A stretch of DNA of 64,000 bases from Holophagaceae bacterium (GTDB lineage: Bacteria > Acidobacteriota > Holophagae > Holophagales > Holophagaceae): positions 1-64,000 of the forward strand of contig WRHW01000002.1 of the NCBI GenBank assembly GCA_009783055.1, in the 5' to 3' direction. The notes beneath the pieces were generated by a model that was not told where the DNA came from, made no database searches, and saw only the letters and a list, made by a program, of their open reading frames with translations. The number at the start of each line of letters is the position of its first letter. The first letter of the stretch is position 1. A program made the translations under genes and the position numbers. This document shows, one piece after another, positions 46,223 to 55,470 of the stretch.

Positions 46223-47173
46223 ATGTCTAGAAAGTCACAATTAAGGGTGGCCGATCGCCTGAGTCATCCGCATCCGGACAGGTTTCTCTCCTTCGTGGTG
46301 GTGCTAACTCGGCGTACCTTCACGTTTACGGTGCGAAAAAAGTTTGTTTATTGGACTATTGGACTATCTGCTGGTATTTGTCTTGTTGCCTTCACAGGTA
46401 GCTGGTATGGCCTTTGGGCAACAAAAAAAATAATGAGCTATAGCGAGCTTGAGCAAGAGACAAGGGAGCAACAGCAACAGCTACAAGAGAGCTTGGAGCA
46501 GGCCGGCCTGTTGCAACAAGATATAGACAACCTATCCGTACTGGTTCACAAACTGGTTAGCGAAATAAATCCCAAGTCCACTTCTTCTGAGCCTTCCAAG
46601 AATGTTGAAAAAAGCAATGACATTGATACAGAGTCTGCACAAAAGGTAAGCGCGTTACAAGATGAACTTAACTCTGCGGATGGTAGGCTAAAAGCAATCC
46701 AAACCCGCACAGCACCCATCTTACACGCATGGTTCCATACTCCAGCGGTGTGGCCAACAGTAGGCACCATTACTTCAGTTTATGGTCAGCGCATTCATCC
46801 TGCGCAAAGAATCATGGGGGGCGGTGGTGACGATCTTTCCCACCATGCCGGAATCGACATTAGCAATGCGCTAGGTACGCCCATTCAGGCCACGGCTAAT
46901 GGAACTGTGATTTTTGCTGGACAATCAGGAAACTATGGAAATACAGTAATAATTCGCCACTCTCAAGAGTTTGAAACGCTGTATGCCCACCTGCACAGAA
47001 TTAATGTTAGCGTAGGTCAGGAAGTTGGGCGAGGCAGTGTTCTGGGTACCATGGGTAGTACAGGCCGATCGACTGGAACTCATCTGCACTACGAAGTCAG
47101 AAAAAAGGGGCAGGCCGTTAACCCAAGACCTTATTTAAAGCTTCAGCTCCAGTGGTTGAAGGGCATTAAATAA
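46223..47173 (+). CDS. M23-family cell-wall endopeptidase, membrane-anchored
   Basis: A 316-residue protein. After a short basic cytoplasmic N-terminus there is one membrane helix (about 41-66), a coiled coil (about 70-120) and a C-terminal LytM/M23 domain (from about 190). Zinc ligands are in HHAGIDIS and HLHYEV, with YAHLHRINV between, so the site is intact. It should cut peptidoglycan cross-links or activate amidases at the inner-membrane face of the wall. A bactofilin gene follows 24 nt later, a known pairing in cell-shape control. No ribosome binding site is seen. Confidence 0.93.
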   Translation: MSRKSQLRVADRLSHPHPDRFLSFVVVLTRRTFTFTVRKKFVYWTIGLSAGICLVAFTGSWYGLWATKKIMSYSELEQETREQQQQLQESLEQAGLLQQDIDNLSVLVHKLVSEINPKSTSSEPSKNVEKSNDIDTESAQKVSALQDELNSADGRLKAIQTRTAPILHAWFHTPAVWPTVGTITSVYGQRIHPAQRIMGGGGDDLSHHAGIDISNALGTPIQATANGTVIFAGQSGNYGNTVIIRHSQEFETLYAHLHRINVSVGQEVGRGSVLGTMGSTGRSTGTHLHYEVRKKGQAVNPRPYLKLQLQWLKGIK

Positions 47174-47197
47174 CGATGTCTCCGGCTGGAGTAGAGG

Positions 47198-47599
47198 ATG
47201 TTAAATAAAAAGCAATCAGGCAATGGAGCTTCTGTTAATTCGATTCTTGGGCGCGCCAGCCTTTGGAAGGGTGAAATTCATGCAGGGGTTGAAAGCCTTA
47301 GGATTGAAGGTAGTGTAGAGGGTACCATCTTCTCTGAGGGTGAAGTAACTATTGCCCCAACGGGGACGGTAAAAGGTACCATCCACGCCAAGCACCTTAT
47401 CGTTACAGGTTATATCGAAGGTAATTTTTTTGTTTCAGAATGCCTCGAAATTCATGGGACAGGTTGTGTTGAGGGTGAAACTGAAGTAGGCTCGCTCGTT
47501 GTCGATGAAGGTGGCACGCTACAAGGGGCATGCGTTAGGCGTGGTTATACAAAACCCCAGTCCGCACAACATATGCAAAATAGCCAGGCAAATAACTAA
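47198..47599 (+). CDS. Bactofilin
   Basis: A 133-residue bactofilin (polymer-forming cytoskeletal protein). The central beta-helix shows the periodic pattern SLRIEGSVEGTIFSEGEVTIAPTG, KGTIHAKHLIVTGYIEGN and GTLQGACVRRGYT, flanked by short polar tails. Bactofilins polymerise without nucleotides at the membrane and recruit wall enzymes. Adjacency to an M23 peptidase supports a shape or morphogenesis role. Confidence 0.93.
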   Translation: MLNKKQSGNGASVNSILGRASLWKGEIHAGVESLRIEGSVEGTIFSEGEVTIAPTGTVKGTIHAKHLIVTGYIEGNFFVSECLEIHGTGCVEGETEVGSLVVDEGGTLQGACVRRGYTKPQSAQHMQNSQANN

Positions 47600-47722: not shown

Positions 47723-47788
47723 ATAATTACAATTCATACCGTGTCGTGTCCAGATTCATTTGAACGCAGGATGGTATTAAGGAGAGCT

Positions 47789-49333
47789 ATGCAGAAAAAA
47801 CTGGGGCTACCTGAAAGCCAAATAGCTAAAGCCCGCGACCTTGCAGTGCAAATAACAAAGCCCGTCATTAACTTCATTGATGCGCACACCACGACTGCTG
47901 TTGAACGAGCCGCGTTGCGTTTGGTGGGGGTTGATGGGGCAGACTCAAACGGAGTACCTGTTTCTAACATCATCATCGACCAGCTTAGGGGCAAACTGGA
48001 AGGTGGAGCACTGCGTTGGTATGTAAACGCTCTGCTACGAACAGGACAGTCCCCCGAGGCCATGAATGTCCAAATTGCTAATGGGCATAAACTAACAGAG
48101 CATCCCCTAGCCGACCAGATGGCTATTGAAGCTAAGGGGACGGAGCTTGCAAATCAATATCTGGCGCGCATCTGCTCAAACAGACAACATAGGGAAGAAA
48201 AGTTAGAGCAATTTATAGGTAATAACCATGACCCTCTGTTGTATGCCATAGTTGCTACTGGCAATATCCACGAGGACGTAAAACAAGCCCAGGCGGCGGC
48301 TTGGCAAGGTGCAGATGTAATTGCAGTAATCCGAACTACGGCTCAGAGTCTACTGGACTATGTCCCTTATGGGGCAACTACAGAGGGCTTTGGTGGCACC
48401 TATGCCACCCAAGAAAATTTTCGTATTATGCGAGAAGCCTTAGATAAGTCTTCTGAACAATTGGAGAGATATATCTATCTCACCAATTACGCATCAGGGC
48501 TATGTATGCCTGAGATTGCCGCTATGGGAGCCTTGGAGCGACTGGACATGATGCTAAATGACTCTATGTATGGCATTCTATTCCGCGACATTAATATGTA
48601 TCGAACATTTGTTGATCAAAAGTTCAGCCGGATGATAAACGCCTATGCCGGAATAATAATTAATACTGGAGAAGACAACTATCTCACCACTTCTGATGCA
48701 GTCGAGAAGGCTCATACTGTGCTTGCCAGTCAATTCATTAATGAGCGATTTGCGCTAGAGGCAGGTCTTTTACCCAAGCAGATGGGTTTAGGCCATGCTT
48801 TTGAAATAGACCCAGATATAAAGAATGGATTTTTGTTTGAAGTAGCACAGGCACAAATGGCGAGGGAAATATTCCCAGAAGCTCCATTGAAATACATGCC
48901 TCCTACCAAGTTTATGACCGGAGATATTTTTAAGGGGGTGGTGCAAAATGCAATGTTTAATTTTGCATCGAAACTTACCAATCAAGGCATCCACTTGTTG
49001 GGGATGCTCACTGAAGCGATACATACGCCCCACATGCAGGATCGTGGGCTTGCCTTGGACAATGCAAAATATGTGATGAACAACATGGCAGACTTGGGGT
49101 CGGAGATTACTTTCAGGCGGGATGGTGTTATTGTAAAACGTGCTCACCGAGTATTAACTGAAACTATTGAGTTTATGGAATCGGTTGCCAGTATTGGGCT
49201 GATGGAAAGTATGGAACAGGGAGCCTTTGCAGACATAAAACGCCCAAGAGATATGGGCAAGGGTCTGGATGGGCTGATAAAAAAGGGAAGTGATTATTGG
49301 AATCCTATCGAAAAAGCCATTGCAGTCAAGTAG
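47789..49333 (+). CDS. kamD: Lysine 5,6-aminomutase alpha subunit
   Basis: A 514-residue KamD, the adenosylcobalamin/PLP-dependent alpha subunit that with KamE moves the terminal amino group of beta-lysine (or D-lysine) to the neighbouring carbon. The N-terminus LGLPESQIAKARDLAVQI, the catalytic barrel stretch VIRTTAQSLLDYVPYGATTE and TYATQENFRIMREALD are family hallmarks. ATG 47789 has AAGGAGAG 2-9 nt upstream. The GTG at 47741 is just after the tRNA and is rejected. kamE follows 15 nt later. The product, 3,5-diaminohexanoate, is the substrate of Kdd near 63.4 kb. Confidence 0.95.
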   Translation: MQKKLGLPESQIAKARDLAVQITKPVINFIDAHTTTAVERAALRLVGVDGADSNGVPVSNIIIDQLRGKLEGGALRWYVNALLRTGQSPEAMNVQIANGHKLTEHPLADQMAIEAKGTELANQYLARICSNRQHREEKLEQFIGNNHDPLLYAIVATGNIHEDVKQAQAAAWQGADVIAVIRTTAQSLLDYVPYGATTEGFGGTYATQENFRIMREALDKSSEQLERYIYLTNYASGLCMPEIAAMGALERLDMMLNDSMYGILFRDINMYRTFVDQKFSRMINAYAGIIINTGEDNYLTTSDAVEKAHTVLASQFINERFALEAGLLPKQMGLGHAFEIDPDIKNGFLFEVAQAQMAREIFPEAPLKYMPPTKFMTGDIFKGVVQNAMFNFASKLTNQGIHLLGMLTEAIHTPHMQDRGLALDNAKYVMNNMADLGSEITFRRDGVIVKRAHRVLTETIEFMESVASIGLMESMEQGAFADIKRPRDMGKGLDGLIKKGSDYWNPIEKAIAVK

Positions 49334-49348
49334 CTGGTTGGAGGAAAA

Positions 49349-50077
49349 ATGTTCATAAGATCTTATGGGGATACAATAGACGACGGAGCGGTGCAACTTT
49401 CCTTTACGCTACCAGTGCCATGCAATGCAAAAGGGTGCGAAGCCGCACGCCAGTATGCCGAAAAACTGGGCTTTTCCCATGCTGATGTAGTGCACAGCCA
49501 TCCACTGTCTGATGGATATTCTTTCTATGTAGTCTATGGAAAAACGAAAGTAAGTGTTGACTATGACCAAATACAGGTTGAAGAAGCCACCGGCGATAAG
49601 CTGTACTCAATGGAGACTGCCTGCGAGATAATTCGGCAACGTATTGGCAGAAAGGTTGTGATAGTGGGTGCTTGCACGGGATTCGATGCGCATACGGTTG
49701 GCATTGATGCAATTATGAACATGAAGGGATACAACCACCACTATGGGCTGGAGAGATATTCTGAGGTAAACGCTCACAATCTGGGAGCACAAGTCCCAAA
49801 CGAAAAATTGATCGATTACGCAGAAAAAATAAATGCAGATGCTATTTTGGTTAGCCAAATCGTAACCCAAAAGGACATACATATTCAGAATCTCACTGAG
49901 TTTATTGAATTGATTCAGTCCAAGGGATTGCGGGAAAAATTTATCCTGTGCATAGGGGGGTCTCGAATAGGCAATAAATTGGCAGTGGAGTTAGGCTTTG
50001 ACGCTGGTTTTGGGCAGGGTACCTATGCCGAACATGTGGCAACTTTTGTGGTTGACCGCCTTCTGGCTAGAGTATAG
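49349..50077 (+). CDS. kamE: Lysine 5,6-aminomutase beta subunit
   Basis: A 242-residue KamE with a cobalamin-binding domain. The B12 signature DAHTVG (DxHxxG) is at about 113-118, followed by a Rossmann-like region (ADAILVSQIVTQKDIH, CIGGSRIGNKLAVELGFDAGFG). K126 in MNMKGYNHHYGLE is the likely PLP-binding lysine equivalent to the one described for the clostridial enzyme. GGAGG precedes the ATG. Convergent with the DUF218 gene, with a gap of only 30 nt. Confidence 0.95.
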   Translation: MFIRSYGDTIDDGAVQLSFTLPVPCNAKGCEAARQYAEKLGFSHADVVHSHPLSDGYSFYVVYGKTKVSVDYDQIQVEEATGDKLYSMETACEIIRQRIGRKVVIVGACTGFDAHTVGIDAIMNMKGYNHHYGLERYSEVNAHNLGAQVPNEKLIDYAEKINADAILVSQIVTQKDIHIQNLTEFIELIQSKGLREKFILCIGGSRIGNKLAVELGFDAGFGQGTYAEHVATFVVDRLLARV

Positions 50078-50107: not shown

Positions 50108-50782
50108 TCAGTTTTCTGATCTACTCCCCGTGGTATCTTCCCTGAACTCAACAATTGGGCTTGGTGGGAACCAGATGTCCCATACAGCCTTATGGCGTGC
50201 AAGGTACTCCCTAAACCAAAAATTCATGCTGGCCAAAGTTTTAATGCTCTTTTGGCCACTTGGGATTCCGTAGGCATCAATGCCAAATCTCTTTGCGAGA
50301 TAGATTGCTCTTGGGAGGTGAAATTCTGATGTTACGATCACTATTTTTTCCTGAGCATAAACCATCTTTGCGCGGATAATGCTGTCGTAGGTGCGTCTAC
50401 CCTCAAAGTCTAAAATAATTTTCTCCTCTGGCACGCCATTTTTTATGAGCCATCGACTCATAGCCAAGGGTTCGTTGTAGTGCTGAGTTCTGTTGTCCCC
50501 AGATACGAGAATCCATGCAACCTTTTTTTCCCTATATAGTTCCAAAGCCACTTGGAGCCTTCCTTCTAATACTTGGGATGGTTCTCCACTTGATTTGACA
50601 CTCGCTCCAAGGACAAGTGCTGGCAATCCTACGGGGAGTAGTTTTGGCTCAAATTGCTTATGCTCTAATGGGAACTTAACACAAAACCAAAGCACGTCAA
50701 ATATGACAACCAGAAGTATAGCTGATGCCGGAATCCAGCAAATTGGTTTTTTGAGAAAACTGGACAAATAATTTTTACCCAT
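50108..50782 (-). CDS. DUF218/SanA-YdcF-family membrane protein
   Basis: A 224-residue protein with an N-terminal membrane helix (PASAILLVVIFDVLWFCV) and a DUF218 domain: VLGASVKSSGEPSQVLEGRL, WILVSGDNRTQHYNEPLAM, LDFEGRRTYDSIIRAKMV and IVTSEFHLPRAIYLAKRFGI. It resembles SanA, linked to envelope barrier function in E. coli, but the biochemical activity is uncertain. The ATG at 50782 is used because the longer ORF begins with TTG. It is divergent from the large lipoprotein gene. Confidence 0.85.
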   Translation of the reverse strand: MGKNYLSSFLKKPICWIPASAILLVVIFDVLWFCVKFPLEHKQFEPKLLPVGLPALVLGASVKSSGEPSQVLEGRLQVALELYREKKVAWILVSGDNRTQHYNEPLAMSRWLIKNGVPEEKIILDFEGRRTYDSIIRAKMVYAQEKIVIVTSEFHLPRAIYLAKRFGIDAYGIPSGQKSIKTLASMNFWFREYLARHKAVWDIWFPPSPIVEFREDTTGSRSEN

Positions 50783-50845
50783 ATTAGGATAGGATAGAGT
50801 CTTATTGCTCTGTTTTTGCAAATAATCTTTTTGAGAGATGAACTA

Positions 50846-53800
50846 ATGTCAAAGTCACACCACAATTCGAAATTTTTCACATCTAGAAACATTCTGTTTT
50901 TCTTGACTATTGCCCCTATCCTAGCCGTTCTTGCTTCGGTCGGATGTTATCGCGCAACTGGTTACGACCGAGCCGCCTTGATAGCACAAGAGATACCGGC
51001 TACAGGGGGCGACCGCGTTCCAGGGCTTAAATCAATGGCCGGAGCGGGGGATTATTTCATTGGCAACGATTTTGTGGCACTGGCGGTTGATGGCACCCCA
51101 ATATCGGCAAAAACTGGCATCGCAGGTGCGGCGGGCGGGGGTAGCATCGTTGATGTGGGCTATATTTCTCTAGATACAAGTTTTCGCAGAGTTTCGATGC
51201 CATGCGACATCCTGGATCGAATGACCACAGTTGTAAACCAAGACCCAGATATTTCACTTGTTTTTGCTGAGTTTTTGACTAATAACGAAATCGGGCTATC
51301 CCACTTGGAAATGCGTGGACAGATACATGACCCAAAACACAAACTTGAGGGAGCGTCTTGGGATAACAATGGTTTTGTCCAAGATGTATTTGCTACAACC
51401 ACTATCAGTCTTGGCTCTCTAGATAGAAGGTTTACAATAGAGACGACAATTACTAACCATCGCTCTAACTCTATTGGAATCCGCAATATTGGCGACTTTG
51501 TGTATCAGCGAGGAGGCGGTTTTCGCATTCTGGCTCCTGCTTACGCAGATAAAAATGGCAATCCTCTTTCAACATGGGGGGTGAACATTCCGGGCACCGA
51601 TTTTTCTAACCCTCTTTCCAACAGCGCACTTTGTGGAGTAGTCGTATTTATGGGTACTGAGCCGGGATCAGATACAGTTGACTGCCATGTGAGCTTAGGA
51701 CTATTGACATCTGATGGCGAACCATTTTTGGTTGCTTCAGATCCCCAAGATAGTCTCAATGAAACAAGGCCGAAATTTCCTGAGCGGTTTGTTGCAGGAT
51801 GCCTCGACACAGGCGTTCCATTGGCTCCAAACGAAAGTCTTTCCCACAAACGCCTGTTAATTGTTAAGGGTGGCACAAGCGGGGAACCAGAGTATGCTCC
51901 GAGTGTAGTCACTGTAAATACCCCCAATCAGGCCACGGGACTTCTGAATGAAATGTTCGCCCAACGAGCCGATATTAAAGAAACGAAGGTGGGTTTGTTG
52001 CGCTTTGTCCTAGAAGGAACGGCTACCCGATCTGGCCCTATCCCGTCTGAATTGCGCTTTGAACGCTACATCGGAGACGGAAACCCTGCCACAGATGCTA
52101 CTCAAACAAACTGGCAGTTGGAAAGGTTGGAATGGATGGAGCCTGTGGAAACATCAGAGTTTCTTTCGGATTATTATTTCACGCCGACAACTACTTTTGG
52201 AATTTATCTGCCAGAGGCCACTTACCGCATTGTTTCCAAAAACATCTATCAATCAACCACCTTGCAAGTAGGAACAAATTATTACATCGAAGACAGGCCA
52301 TCGCTGGAAACTCCAATTGACATTGACTGGGAGATGCCTTTTTTCCTGTCAGAGACTCTTAGTCCCGAAAGGTCAGATGTGTTGTCCCCGTTTGGCTCCA
52401 GGATTTCTGTTGCTCAGACAGGTTATTTTATTTCCACTCGAGGGAATGATTCACCTCTTGGCTTTATTCAACCAATAAGGTTCACAATCTCTGGCATTGA
52501 TGGTTCAGCAGACCCACATATGAGGAGATTCAGAGGTCTAACATCTGCTTTCGACCCAACTGCAAAGTTGCCAAGGCCAGCAATTGAAATGCCCGGCAAT
52601 TTCCATTTCATAGGAGGCAATTCTGCATTTGGTGTTCAACTGGCAAACTCTATTATTCTTTGGACCATTCCCGGCAGATACCAAGCGTTTGGGGCAAGGG
52701 GGCCACTTTCTACTCTGGAGTCATTTGTAATAGATTCAAGACCAGGGTCTGGTAATTCAACAACCACTCTCACTGTATTCCCAACTCCCCTGCCAGAAGG
52801 TTGGATAGCTTTTGATACCCCAGGTCCATCAATGGCAACTATTGGTGGGATGTTGCCAGCTGAACAACTATCTTCAGCCTTGGCTGAAGGTATTAATGTA
52901 ATAGCCCGTACCGAAATAGATCACCAGACCAATGGTGAAGAACTGTACAAATTCTTTAGGTATGAGATTGATTACTCAGAAGACTATGTGACCGCAGTAG
53001 ACAACAATCCCCTGATTGTTAATGCTAGGTCTTCAAGCCTAGATAGTTATGGAACTGTGACTGCCTATTTTACACCAGTAGACCCAGAAGGGCGAAATGG
53101 AGGGGCTAGGCCATCAAAGGGCTGGACGCTAGCAGATTTTTTAGCGCAGGCAGATGGCAAGTATAATGTGATACATAGGCCTCGAGGTCCTCACGGGCTT
53201 TTCACCCAATTGGGCTTTGACCCCAACCTTCCATTGGCAAGCGGTGCTCCTTGGTGGCACGATTCCGGATTGCTTTCCTTTGGCGTCACAAATGGACAGT
53301 TTGATGCCATCGAAATCCTCAGTGCGGGAGCAATTGCAGATTCAGACATCAATATTTGGTGGTCAGAATACAAGGAACTCAGAAACGATTGGTTTTCCAT
53401 TCTCAATCAACAAACCCCAGATTTTTATACAAAAGCCCTTGGTTTTTCATCCGGTAAGTTCAGCCAAGATACACCTGTGGGGCTGGCTCGGACATACCTC
53501 AATGTTAATAACTCGGAAATAAGCCAGACCGAACAAGAGCCAATCCTCCAAGCTCTTAAAACTGGGTCTGCCGTAGCATCCACTGGCCCACTCTTGGATG
53601 TTACGATTGACGGCAAAGGGCCAGGTAGTCTAGTAACTCTTAGCGGTTCGCCAGCTTCAGTATCCCTAAACATCACTTTGGTAGCCACAGACTGGATGCC
53701 TGTGGATGAACTCAGAGTTATTGTCAACGGGCAATTGGTCGCAACGATTCCAGACCCCAAGACTGTCCTTGCGCCTTCCGATGAAGACTATAGGTTTTTT

Positions 53801-54007
53801 ACCGGCACAATTGCAGTTCCAGTTCCGGTAGGCAAGGATGCTTGGCTAGTAGTTGAAGCAGGGGTGGCATTGGGAACCACCGGTGCTTATAGACCTGGAA
53901 CTCCCTGGAATATACAAATGAAGGGTATTTACCCTATTGCAATTACAAACCCCATTTTTCTTTCCTTGACTCATGGCCAGTATTCCCAGCCTGGGCTTGA
54001 AAAATAA
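50846..54007 (+). CDS. Large predicted lipoprotein with degenerate PHP/CehA-like domain
   Basis: A 1053-residue exported protein. The N-terminus has a membrane-like signal and a lipobox-like LASVGC (Cys about 34, with Ser at -3, which is unusual). Beta-rich segments follow to about residue 640. Residues ~650-900 align by pattern with CehA/McbA-type PHP metallohydrolase domains, but the metal-binding positions are lost. The usual HxH region reads AFDTPGPS, the TDHN site TEIDHQ, and the later DSH site GFSSGKFS, while VIHRPRGPHG and FDAIEILS remain. ARTYLNV and STGPLLDVTIDGKGPG at the end are also typical. It may be a carbohydrate- or protein-binding pseudoenzyme. Function unknown. Confidence 0.8.
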   Translation: MSKSHHNSKFFTSRNILFFLTIAPILAVLASVGCYRATGYDRAALIAQEIPATGGDRVPGLKSMAGAGDYFIGNDFVALAVDGTPISAKTGIAGAAGGGSIVDVGYISLDTSFRRVSMPCDILDRMTTVVNQDPDISLVFAEFLTNNEIGLSHLEMRGQIHDPKHKLEGASWDNNGFVQDVFATTTISLGSLDRRFTIETTITNHRSNSIGIRNIGDFVYQRGGGFRILAPAYADKNGNPLSTWGVNIPGTDFSNPLSNSALCGVVVFMGTEPGSDTVDCHVSLGLLTSDGEPFLVASDPQDSLNETRPKFPERFVAGCLDTGVPLAPNESLSHKRLLIVKGGTSGEPEYAPSVVTVNTPNQATGLLNEMFAQRADIKETKVGLLRFVLEGTATRSGPIPSELRFERYIGDGNPATDATQTNWQLERLEWMEPVETSEFLSDYYFTPTTTFGIYLPEATYRIVSKNIYQSTTLQVGTNYYIEDRPSLETPIDIDWEMPFFLSETLSPERSDVLSPFGSRISVAQTGYFISTRGNDSPLGFIQPIRFTISGIDGSADPHMRRFRGLTSAFDPTAKLPRPAIEMPGNFHFIGGNSAFGVQLANSIILWTIPGRYQAFGARGPLSTLESFVIDSRPGSGNSTTTLTVFPTPLPEGWIAFDTPGPSMATIGGMLPAEQLSSALAEGINVIARTEIDHQTNGEELYKFFRYEIDYSEDYVTAVDNNPLIVNARSSSLDSYGTVTAYFTPVDPEGRNGGARPSKGWTLADFLAQADGKYNVIHRPRGPHGLFTQLGFDPNLPLASGAPWWHDSGLLSFGVTNGQFDAIEILSAGAIADSDINIWWSEYKELRNDWFSILNQQTPDFYTKALGFSSGKFSQDTPVGLARTYLNVNNSEISQTEQEPILQALKTGSAVASTGPLLDVTIDGKGPGSLVTLSGSPASVSLNITLVATDWMPVDELRVIVNGQLVATIPDPKTVLAPSDEDYRFFTGTIAVPVPVGKDAWLVVEAGVALGTTGAYRPGTPWNIQMKGIYPIAITNPIFLSLTHGQYSQPGLEK

Positions 54008-54057: not shown

Positions 54058-55470
54058 ATGTCCGAAGACTGGATTCCAGAACACATGCCCGAAGACCTTG
54101 ATGCTGAAAGGTCTCTCATAGCAACTTGTTGCGCTCCGGGCATGGAGGAGGAAGCGGCTGAAGTAATTACCAATCTTAACGAGGACGACTTCGTTCATCC
54201 AGCCCACAAGGCTATTTTTCGTGCTATGGGAAGGCTCATTGATGCAAGTCTACCTATTAATGCCCTTACGCTCAAGGATTCACTCGGAACCGCAAAGGAT
54301 CTATCACGCGTAGGGGATTTTGCTGGCATTGTTGAGGTTCTCGTTTCTGAGGAGGTTAGGGATCCACAAGTACTGGCAGATATCCTGACCAGAAAGCGCA
54401 AACATAGGGATTTAATTCGCCTAGGAGCACAGCTAACAAGAAAAGCGGTTCACGAGGAAGACGCGCCTGAAGTATTGGTTGAACAAGCCAGCCATGAGCT
54501 CTTCCGAATTGCCCAAGGAAAAGACACAAGGGGATTAGAACCAATCTCCCAAGTAATGGCTGAAGCCTATAGACGCATCCTTGACCGCTTGATAAGTGGT
54601 GGATCGTCGGGCGTTAAGGTGGGTTTTTCTCGTCTGGATACCCTGACTCAAGGGTTTCAGCCTGGAAACCTAGTTGTGTTGGGAGCAAGACCAAGTGTCG
54701 GTAAAACAGCATTGGCTCTCAATTGGCTTTTGCACGCATCTGTCCGGCACCATAAACACGTTGCCTTCTTTAGTCTGGAGATGAGTAAGGAAGAAGTCAG
54801 CAATCGACTAATTTCCTCACACTCCAAAGTTGACTTAAAAAAAGTTACCCACGGACAAATACAAGGGGAGGAACAACAAATAATTTGTAACGCTCAGGAA
54901 GTATTAAGCCAATACAACATTTACATCTGCGACCGAGCGGCCATAACTATACGAGAAATCGCCGCGATGGTTGACAAACTTTGCTCTCAGTCAGGCAAAA
55001 AACTAGATTTGATTATTATTGACTACCTCCAGCTAATATCGAGTCCACAAGACAGCCGCGGAGCAAGGCAAAACGAGGCAGTCCGAATCGGAGAAATTAG
55101 CCGCGCCCTAAAAATACTGGCCAGAGAACGAAACGTCCCTGTAGTTGTATTATCTCAGCTAAACCGTGAAGTAGAACATGGGCAAGGCAGAAGACCCCAA
55201 TTGTCTGATCTCAGAGATTCAGGGGCAATAGAGCAGGATGCCGACATAGTAATGTTTATTCACAGCTCAAAAATCAAGCCTGGCTCTTCTGAGGATATTC
55301 CCGCTTCGACCGATATTAATTCCGGCTTGGATGATTACGAACATAACAAAAGAGAACTAATAATAGCAAAGCACAGAAACGGCCCAACATCAGTGATTCC
55401 ACTCTATTTTGAGTCACAATATACTCTCTATCATGAATTGGAACCAGACAATTATAGTGAAAGGGTGTAA
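54058..55470 (+). CDS. dnaB: Replicative DNA helicase DnaB
   Basis: A 470-residue hexameric replication fork helicase. The N-terminal domain (MPEDLDAERSLIATC to about 150) is followed by the RecA-like motor with Walker A ARPSVGKTALALNW, HVAFFSLEMSKEEVSNRL, Walker B LIIIDYLQLI and VVLSQLNREVE. No intein is seen. It is preceded by a candidate leaderless promoter. recG follows in the same direction with a 51-nt gap. Confidence 0.95.
   Translation: MSEDWIPEHMPEDLDAERSLIATCCAPGMEEEAAEVITNLNEDDFVHPAHKAIFRAMGRLIDASLPINALTLKDSLGTAKDLSRVGDFAGIVEVLVSEEVRDPQVLADILTRKRKHRDLIRLGAQLTRKAVHEEDAPEVLVEQASHELFRIAQGKDTRGLEPISQVMAEAYRRILDRLISGGSSGVKVGFSRLDTLTQGFQPGNLVVLGARPSVGKTALALNWLLHASVRHHKHVAFFSLEMSKEEVSNRLISSHSKVDLKKVTHGQIQGEEQQIICNAQEVLSQYNIYICDRAAITIREIAAMVDKLCSQSGKKLDLIIIDYLQLISSPQDSRGARQNEAVRIGEISRALKILARERNVPVVVLSQLNREVEHGQGRRPQLSDLRDSGAIEQDADIVMFIHSSKIKPGSSEDIPASTDINSGLDDYEHNKRELIIAKHRNGPTSVIPLYFESQYTLYHELEPDNYSERV

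Follow-up and report, generated by a model that had tools for sequence, protein, structure and literature searches.

A predicted CehA-type lipoprotein of the Holophagae whose PHP domain lacks its metal ligands

The closest described relatives of the protein reported here are the carbaryl hydrolases CehA and McbA (NCBIfam profile NF038032, CehA_McbA_metalo), in which a PHP-type domain is followed by an Ig-like domain. PHP metal ligands are carried by the motifs HxH, TDH, HxN, NHP and SDxH together with a Glu. This list agrees with an excerpt on CehA (PMC8292978), which reports an important part for His313, His315, His453 and His495 in carbofuran hydrolysis. Among solved structures, the best match to the PHP part of our protein is BVU_3505 of Bacteroides (3e38), a two-domain predicted PHP phosphoesterase of about 343 residues whose title describes it as metal-dependent. 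Replicative polymerases are known to contain degenerate PHP domains. In E. coli DNA polymerase III alpha, according to an excerpt of one study, the PHP domain has lost several metal ligands and plays a structural role (PMC3666897). The open-access literature yielded no paper joining a PHP domain with a pseudoenzyme or with galactose mutarotase and, judged by title, nothing on a Holophagae pseudo-CehA lipoprotein.

The DNA analysed (the window) is a stretch of 64,000 nucleotides from contig WRHW01000002.1 of a Holophagaceae bacterium (assembly GCA_009783055.1). It encodes a protein (P0001, hereafter pseudo-CehA) that shares with CehA and McbA a homologous C-terminal region formed by a PHP-type and then an Ig-like domain but, unlike them, carries none of eight metal ligands. 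The features of the locus are collected in Table 1. The list of open reading frames also offers a longer version of P0001 beginning at an upstream TTG. Its N-terminus is hydrophobic and ends in ...ASVGC34, with a Gly at position -1, and Cys34 is invariant in all 48 rows of the Holophagaceae orthologue alignment. This succession of an N-terminal hydrophobic segment and a conserved Cys suggests that P0001 is probably a lipoprotein with a predicted place in the envelope; the surface location given in the earlier note goes further than this lipidation-type Cys.

Table 1. Features of the pseudo-CehA locus (window positions)
Feature	Position	Strand	Evidence
sanA-like DUF218 gene, divergent	50108..50821	-	PF02698, E 7.2e-27; order conserved
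GAGAG, likely ribosome-binding site	50833..50837	+	Inferred from the sequence, 8 bases before ATG 50846
Pseudo-CehA CDS (P0001), predicted lipoprotein	50846..54007	+	ATG 50846 to stop 54007, 1053 aa
Predicted signal segment (residues 1-33) and lipobox-type Cys34	50846..50947	+	Hydrophobic stretch, then Cys34
Predicted galactose-mutarotase-like beta domain, residues 44-344	50975..51877	+	AlphaFold2 model; 4bze_B match
Mostly beta region, residues 345-650, less conserved	51878..52795	+	AlphaFold2 secondary structure; alignment conservation
Predicted PHP fold without metal ligands, residues 651-914	52796..53587	+	AlphaFold2; structural matches; ligand count 0/8
Former DxHxH, now D657-T-P659-G-P661	52814..52828	+	Alignments
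Former TDHN, now T689-E-I691-D692	52910..52921	+	Alignments
Former NHPR, now H777-R778-P779-R780	53174..53185	+	Alignments
Former SDSH, now S868-S869-G870-K871	53447..53458	+	Alignments
Predicted C-terminal Ig-like beta sandwich, residues 915-1043	53588..53974	+	Within CehA_McbA model match; SoxZ-/FnIII-like matches, Z 7.6-8.3
dnaB helicase gene, co-directional	54058..55470	+	PF03796, E 2.7e-87; order conserved

Pfam returned no family for P0001 even at an E-value of 10, and weak CarboxypepD_reg matches appeared in 6 of 28 aligned family members (best E 0.00045). NF038032 matches residues 874-1039 (E 1.1e-16) with 61.2 bits, below its curated cut-off of 80. The match spans model positions 186-314 of 315 only, so that the sequence search misses most of the metal-site half. 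A search of PDB sequences with P0001 gave nothing meaningful (two matches, E 0.26 and 0.46) and one with the orthologue profile gave no match, while the profile of the ligand-keeping sisters described below recovered 9etk and 3e38. Structure was predicted with AlphaFold2 from the 48-row alignment, the models being built from orthologues only; mean pLDDT is 85.6 for the whole of P0001 and 87.3 for residues 540-1053 modelled alone. The six best solved matches of the C-terminal model (VIA-align) are 3e38 (Z 13.6), 2anu (11.9), 7rty (11.6), 7k30 (10.8), 9etk (10.1) and 7ug9 (10.0). The full-length model matches 3e38 with Z 14.9, and identity to this structure is 16%. Four of the six (3e38, 2anu, 7ug9 and 9etk, an RNase AM) carry a PHP label in structure listings; the other two, 7rty (PsfC) and 7k30 (EndoQ), are PHP proteins as well. 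In the rows that follow, at Z about 8, the match is to the Ig-like part at the C-terminus, and PolC (3f2b), a PHP-bearing polymerase, is found at Z 8.1. Folds that do not appear among the VIA-align matches are not thereby counted against. With Foldseek, four chains reach an E-value of 0.001, of which two belong to 3e38 and one each to 2anu and a sulfite oxidase. The latter, like other rows of the C-terminal structure search, matches the Ig-like part. The models thus predict a PHP fold for the C-terminal third of P0001, and not the unrelated fold that the earlier note had considered as a possible outcome of such a prediction. At the other end of the protein, residues 44-344 match galactose mutarotase (GalM, 4bze_B) with Z 16.3 and rmsd 3.9 over 235 aligned residues, at only 11% identity, indicating a predicted galactose-mutarotase fold.

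A contig search with the single P0001 sequence found no relative, while an alignment query did. The records found in this way are labelled mostly Holophagaceae, Geothrix, Holophaga, Holophagales and Acidobacteria, with single ones labelled Bacillota and Deltaproteobacteria. A search of the phylum matched 91 of 297 genomes, 58 of them outside the Holophagae (counted by hand). Twenty of these 58, from the 21 best scoring (G228 was passed over), provided sister proteins from other Acidobacteriota families (L164-L183), of which 17 were aligned; the ligand counts leave aside L175, L177 and L173, the last of which is truncated at a contig end. All 17 match NF038032 (E up to 0.001), and comparison of the orthologue profile with their alignment gives an hhalign probability of 100 and an E-value of 5.4e-41. 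These values, together with the predicted PHP fold, support the view put forward in the earlier note that the C-terminal third keeps the CehA/McbA framework, and indicate that P0001 shares descent with ligand-bearing members of the family. The sisters have homologous PHP and Ig-like parts, and L178, L180 and, weakly, L182 share the N-terminal domain of P0001 as well. Their open frames are mostly 810-880 aa long (range 520-1062, some of them cut) against 1053 aa for P0001. Moreover, the 17 aligned sisters differ from it in keeping the ligands: 16 retain all eight and one, L169 (1033-4218, minus strand), retains seven, with one ligand His replaced by Asp. Among the uncounted proteins, L175 and L177 show HxH, TDHN, NHP and SDSH, and L173 shows TDHN, NHP and TDSH, its HxH part lying beyond the contig end.

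The list of PHP ligands given above fits invariant or near-invariant columns of the ligand-keeping sisters. At these eight columns the sisters carry H, H, H, E, H, H, D and H, whereas P0001 carries P659, P661, I691, N721, T737, R778, S869 and K871, that is, none of the NF038032 metal ligands. The earlier note had described three replaced sites. The replacements are real, but its reading of HxH as DTP was out of register, since D657 aligns with the Asp preceding HxH (40/40 rows of the joint alignment of Holophagae proteins and sisters) and the two His have given way to P659 and P661 (P659-G-P661). Its reading of TDHN as TEID fits the alignment. So does that of DSH as SSGK in the joint alignment (SDSH), although hhalign moves the last residue by one. 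Three further losses had escaped it: the Glu (now N721), the His of HxN (now T737, in the hairpin where the alignment is least certain) and the His of NHP (now R778). No ligand set was found at shifted positions in the alignments, an eventuality that it had also raised. In the Holophagaceae alignment 45 of the 48 rows keep 0/8 ligands and three keep 1/8 (a Glu at 721 in L046, a His at 778 in L052 and a His at 871 in L081), which argues against chance as the source of the loss. All 10 rows from two other Holophagae families are at 0/8. Position 721, Asn in P0001 and Glu in the sisters, is Asp in 38/48 orthologues, so that most of them may retain an acidic side chain there. The invariant R728 was considered as a substitute for the ligand Glu and dropped, as the joint alignment places N721 there. 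D657, E690, D692, H777 and D875 may form a new metal site. From the loss of its ligands P0001 would have given up metal binding and catalysis, and a large pseudoenzyme of about 1050 residues, as first proposed, appears to be the best reading of this 1053-aa sequence.

In the joint alignment (40 rows) the 23 Holophagae proteins keep 0-1 of the eight ligands and the 17 sisters 7-8. A tree of these 40 rows, built after removal of the motif columns and unrooted, contains one branch (support 100/99) with the 23 ligand-less proteins on one side and the 17 that keep ligands on the other, and requires a single change of state. Together these results suggest that the ligands were probably lost once, before the class Holophagae diversified. 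Loss is preferred to gain on this unrooted tree because ligand-bearing members are widespread in the family.

The genome of origin contains a single match to the pseudo-CehA protein. Paralogues that keep the ligands, which the earlier note had suggested looking for, are present there as two distant PHP proteins, L026 (1237-2403, minus strand, 388 aa) and L028 (1498-2361, plus strand, 287 aa), both with HxH, TDH and SDxH; nearer ligand-keeping counterparts occur in other families of the phylum. In a sample of 61 Holophagae genomes, the whole NF038032 model is spanned by matches in L105, L106, L107, L109, L112, L113 and L114, and none of these seven is a ligand-bearing protein with the architecture of P0001. 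L107, L109, L112, L113 and L114, found in some Holophagae, are large PHP proteins, some 1000 aa long, that carry FGNLHSQTNHSDG- or FGNVHAHSSYSDG-type motifs together with SEHNH/SDHNH; they show, by eye, repeated Ig-like or lamin-tail-like parts. In L105 (211-2898, minus strand, 239 bits) and L106 (1327-3759, minus strand, 186.5 bits) an apparent TolB-type beta-propeller precedes the CehA match, HxH is present and TDHN seems to be absent. A class-wide search with the sister profile matched 87 of 93 genomes; among the matches listed, most are places of pseudo-CehA and the others are weak or partial.

Within the PHP part, the conservation score is 0.673 in the former ligand loops and 0.590 elsewhere in the domain, and 3 of 272 circular shifts reach 0.673 (the loop limits were picked by the analyst). 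This unusual conservation makes the former PHP site look reused rather than decayed. D657, P659, D692, R728, P779, D875, T876 and R882 are invariant in the 48 Holophagaceae rows and P661 is found in 47 of them, while position 871 is R or K in 34/48. Position 778 is R in 38/48 and Q in 8/48, and R in 5 of the 10 rows of the two other families. At 659 and 661 these families depart from the Holophagaceae residues, which identifies the Pro/Asp/Arg set as a Holophagaceae feature. With 778 variable and P659/P661 unshared, the new site differs from one part of the class to another.

The PHP domain could instead be a mere structural remnant that holds the chain together, with the work done by the mutarotase-like domain, through binding of a sugar or through catalysis. 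E. coli DNA polymerase III alpha provides a precedent in the excerpt cited above (PMC3666897): there too the PHP fold outlasts ligand loss in a structural role, although it lies within a cytoplasmic replicase and not in an envelope protein, and several rather than all ligands are lost. Residues 44-344 form a good mutarotase fold, residues 51-150 rank with the better conserved stretches, and the non-ligand framework residues D657, P779, W849, G879 and R882 are retained in 40/40 rows of the joint alignment. However, conservation is higher in the former loops than elsewhere in the PHP domain, and they carry new family-specific invariants (P659 and D692), beyond what stability alone would lead one to expect. 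We therefore consider this explanation unlikely, though it deserves serious consideration. Another proposal is that the site has been rebuilt as a different enzyme, either metal-free or with a new metal site, by means of the invariant Asp/Arg set, since D657, D692, R728, D875, T876 and R882 stand in or near the former site in 48/48 rows. D657 and R882 are, however, invariant in the ligand-keeping sisters too and need not signal new chemistry. Moreover, no known catalytic set was recognised, and we hold a rebuilt enzyme to be improbable.

Of 77 Holophagaceae genomes, 74 contain a match to pseudo-CehA, in a few cases a fragment at the end of a contig. All 48 good genomes, with completeness of 90% or more and contamination of 5% or less, are among them. 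The protein was first described as unusual, which holds in comparison with known CehA proteins but not within its own group. The three genomes giving no match are G066 (0.9 Mb, 84% complete), G004 (89%) and G014 (71%), the last two being both genomes of one Holophagaceae genus, and from these pseudo-CehA may be dispensable. All 16 sampled genomes of two other Holophagae families match. Of 59 named loci, 52 have the order sanA-pseudo-CehA-dnaB, with sanA divergent and dnaB co-directional. Among the seven exceptions, six end at a contig edge, and in L082 overlapping open frames hid sanA from the rule used. Two Holophagaceae genomes of 1.2 Mb (96-97% complete; loci L018 and L019 in G018 and G010) retain pseudo-CehA beside sanA and dnaB. 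Five loci of the two other families gave no sanA-like or dnaB match within about 5 kb on each side, showing that this gene context does not reach beyond the Holophagaceae; the short flanks fetched for the sisters gave no DnaB or SanA match either. Further upstream, the window contains a pair of genes encoding the two subunits of a lysine 5,6-aminomutase-type enzyme (47741-50077; PF09043, and PF16554 with a B12-binding domain), which suggest amino-acid fermentation. These are preceded by an M23 peptidase gene and then a bactofilin gene (46223-47599), a pairing known from cell-shape loci. Pseudo-CehA is under strong purifying selection, with dN/dS of 0.064-0.169 in 19 close pairs (0.054-0.159 over the last 450 residues), pairs that share species and are thus non-independent. 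Ordinary decay of a gene drifting toward loss, to which the missing ligands and the three genomes without a match might point, is already contradicted by these ratios, which speak strongly against it, by the 48/48 good genomes and by the two 1.2-Mb genomes, and can be given very little credence.

We favour, with some reserve, the explanation that pseudo-CehA has been handed down vertically in the Holophagae as a single-copy pseudoenzyme, that it lost its ligands before the class diversified and that it is kept for a non-catalytic job in the cell envelope. Its ancestor would have been a ligand-bearing CehA-type protein with mutarotase-like, beta, PHP and Ig-like domains, whose PHP metal ligands disappeared before the radiation of the class. 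Near-universal inheritance in spite of the lost ligands suggests a non-enzymatic task of this kind. Cys34 would hold the lipoprotein on the envelope, while binding of a ligand or partner protein may fall to the mutarotase-like domain together with the remodelled PHP site. The PHP fold perhaps serves as a structural element as well. Given a carbohydrate-type fold in the model and a remodelled PHP domain, binding of a ligand or partner in a non-catalytic envelope role is the most likely function. SanA-type proteins are envelope proteins, and the divergent DUF218 neighbour weakly fits such a role.

The fold and the loss of PHP ligands are already known; what is to our knowledge new is a class-wide, ligand-less CehA-type lipoprotein that is near-universal in its family. 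Ligand loss is fixed across the sampled members of the class in a large, probably extracytoplasmic lipoprotein, and the ligand-keeping sisters in the same phylum allow a direct comparison, a natural experiment in the passage from an enzyme to a binding or structural protein. The finding also points to a near-universal envelope component of the Holophagaceae. As a more tentative proposal, possible but still doubtful, the class may have given up the PHP metal centre and the Holophagaceae may have substituted a conserved Pro/Asp/Arg set. What had been a secreted hydrolase would thereby have become a non-catalytic receptor or scaffold of the envelope, a core and perhaps essential component that is kept even in 1.2-Mb genomes.
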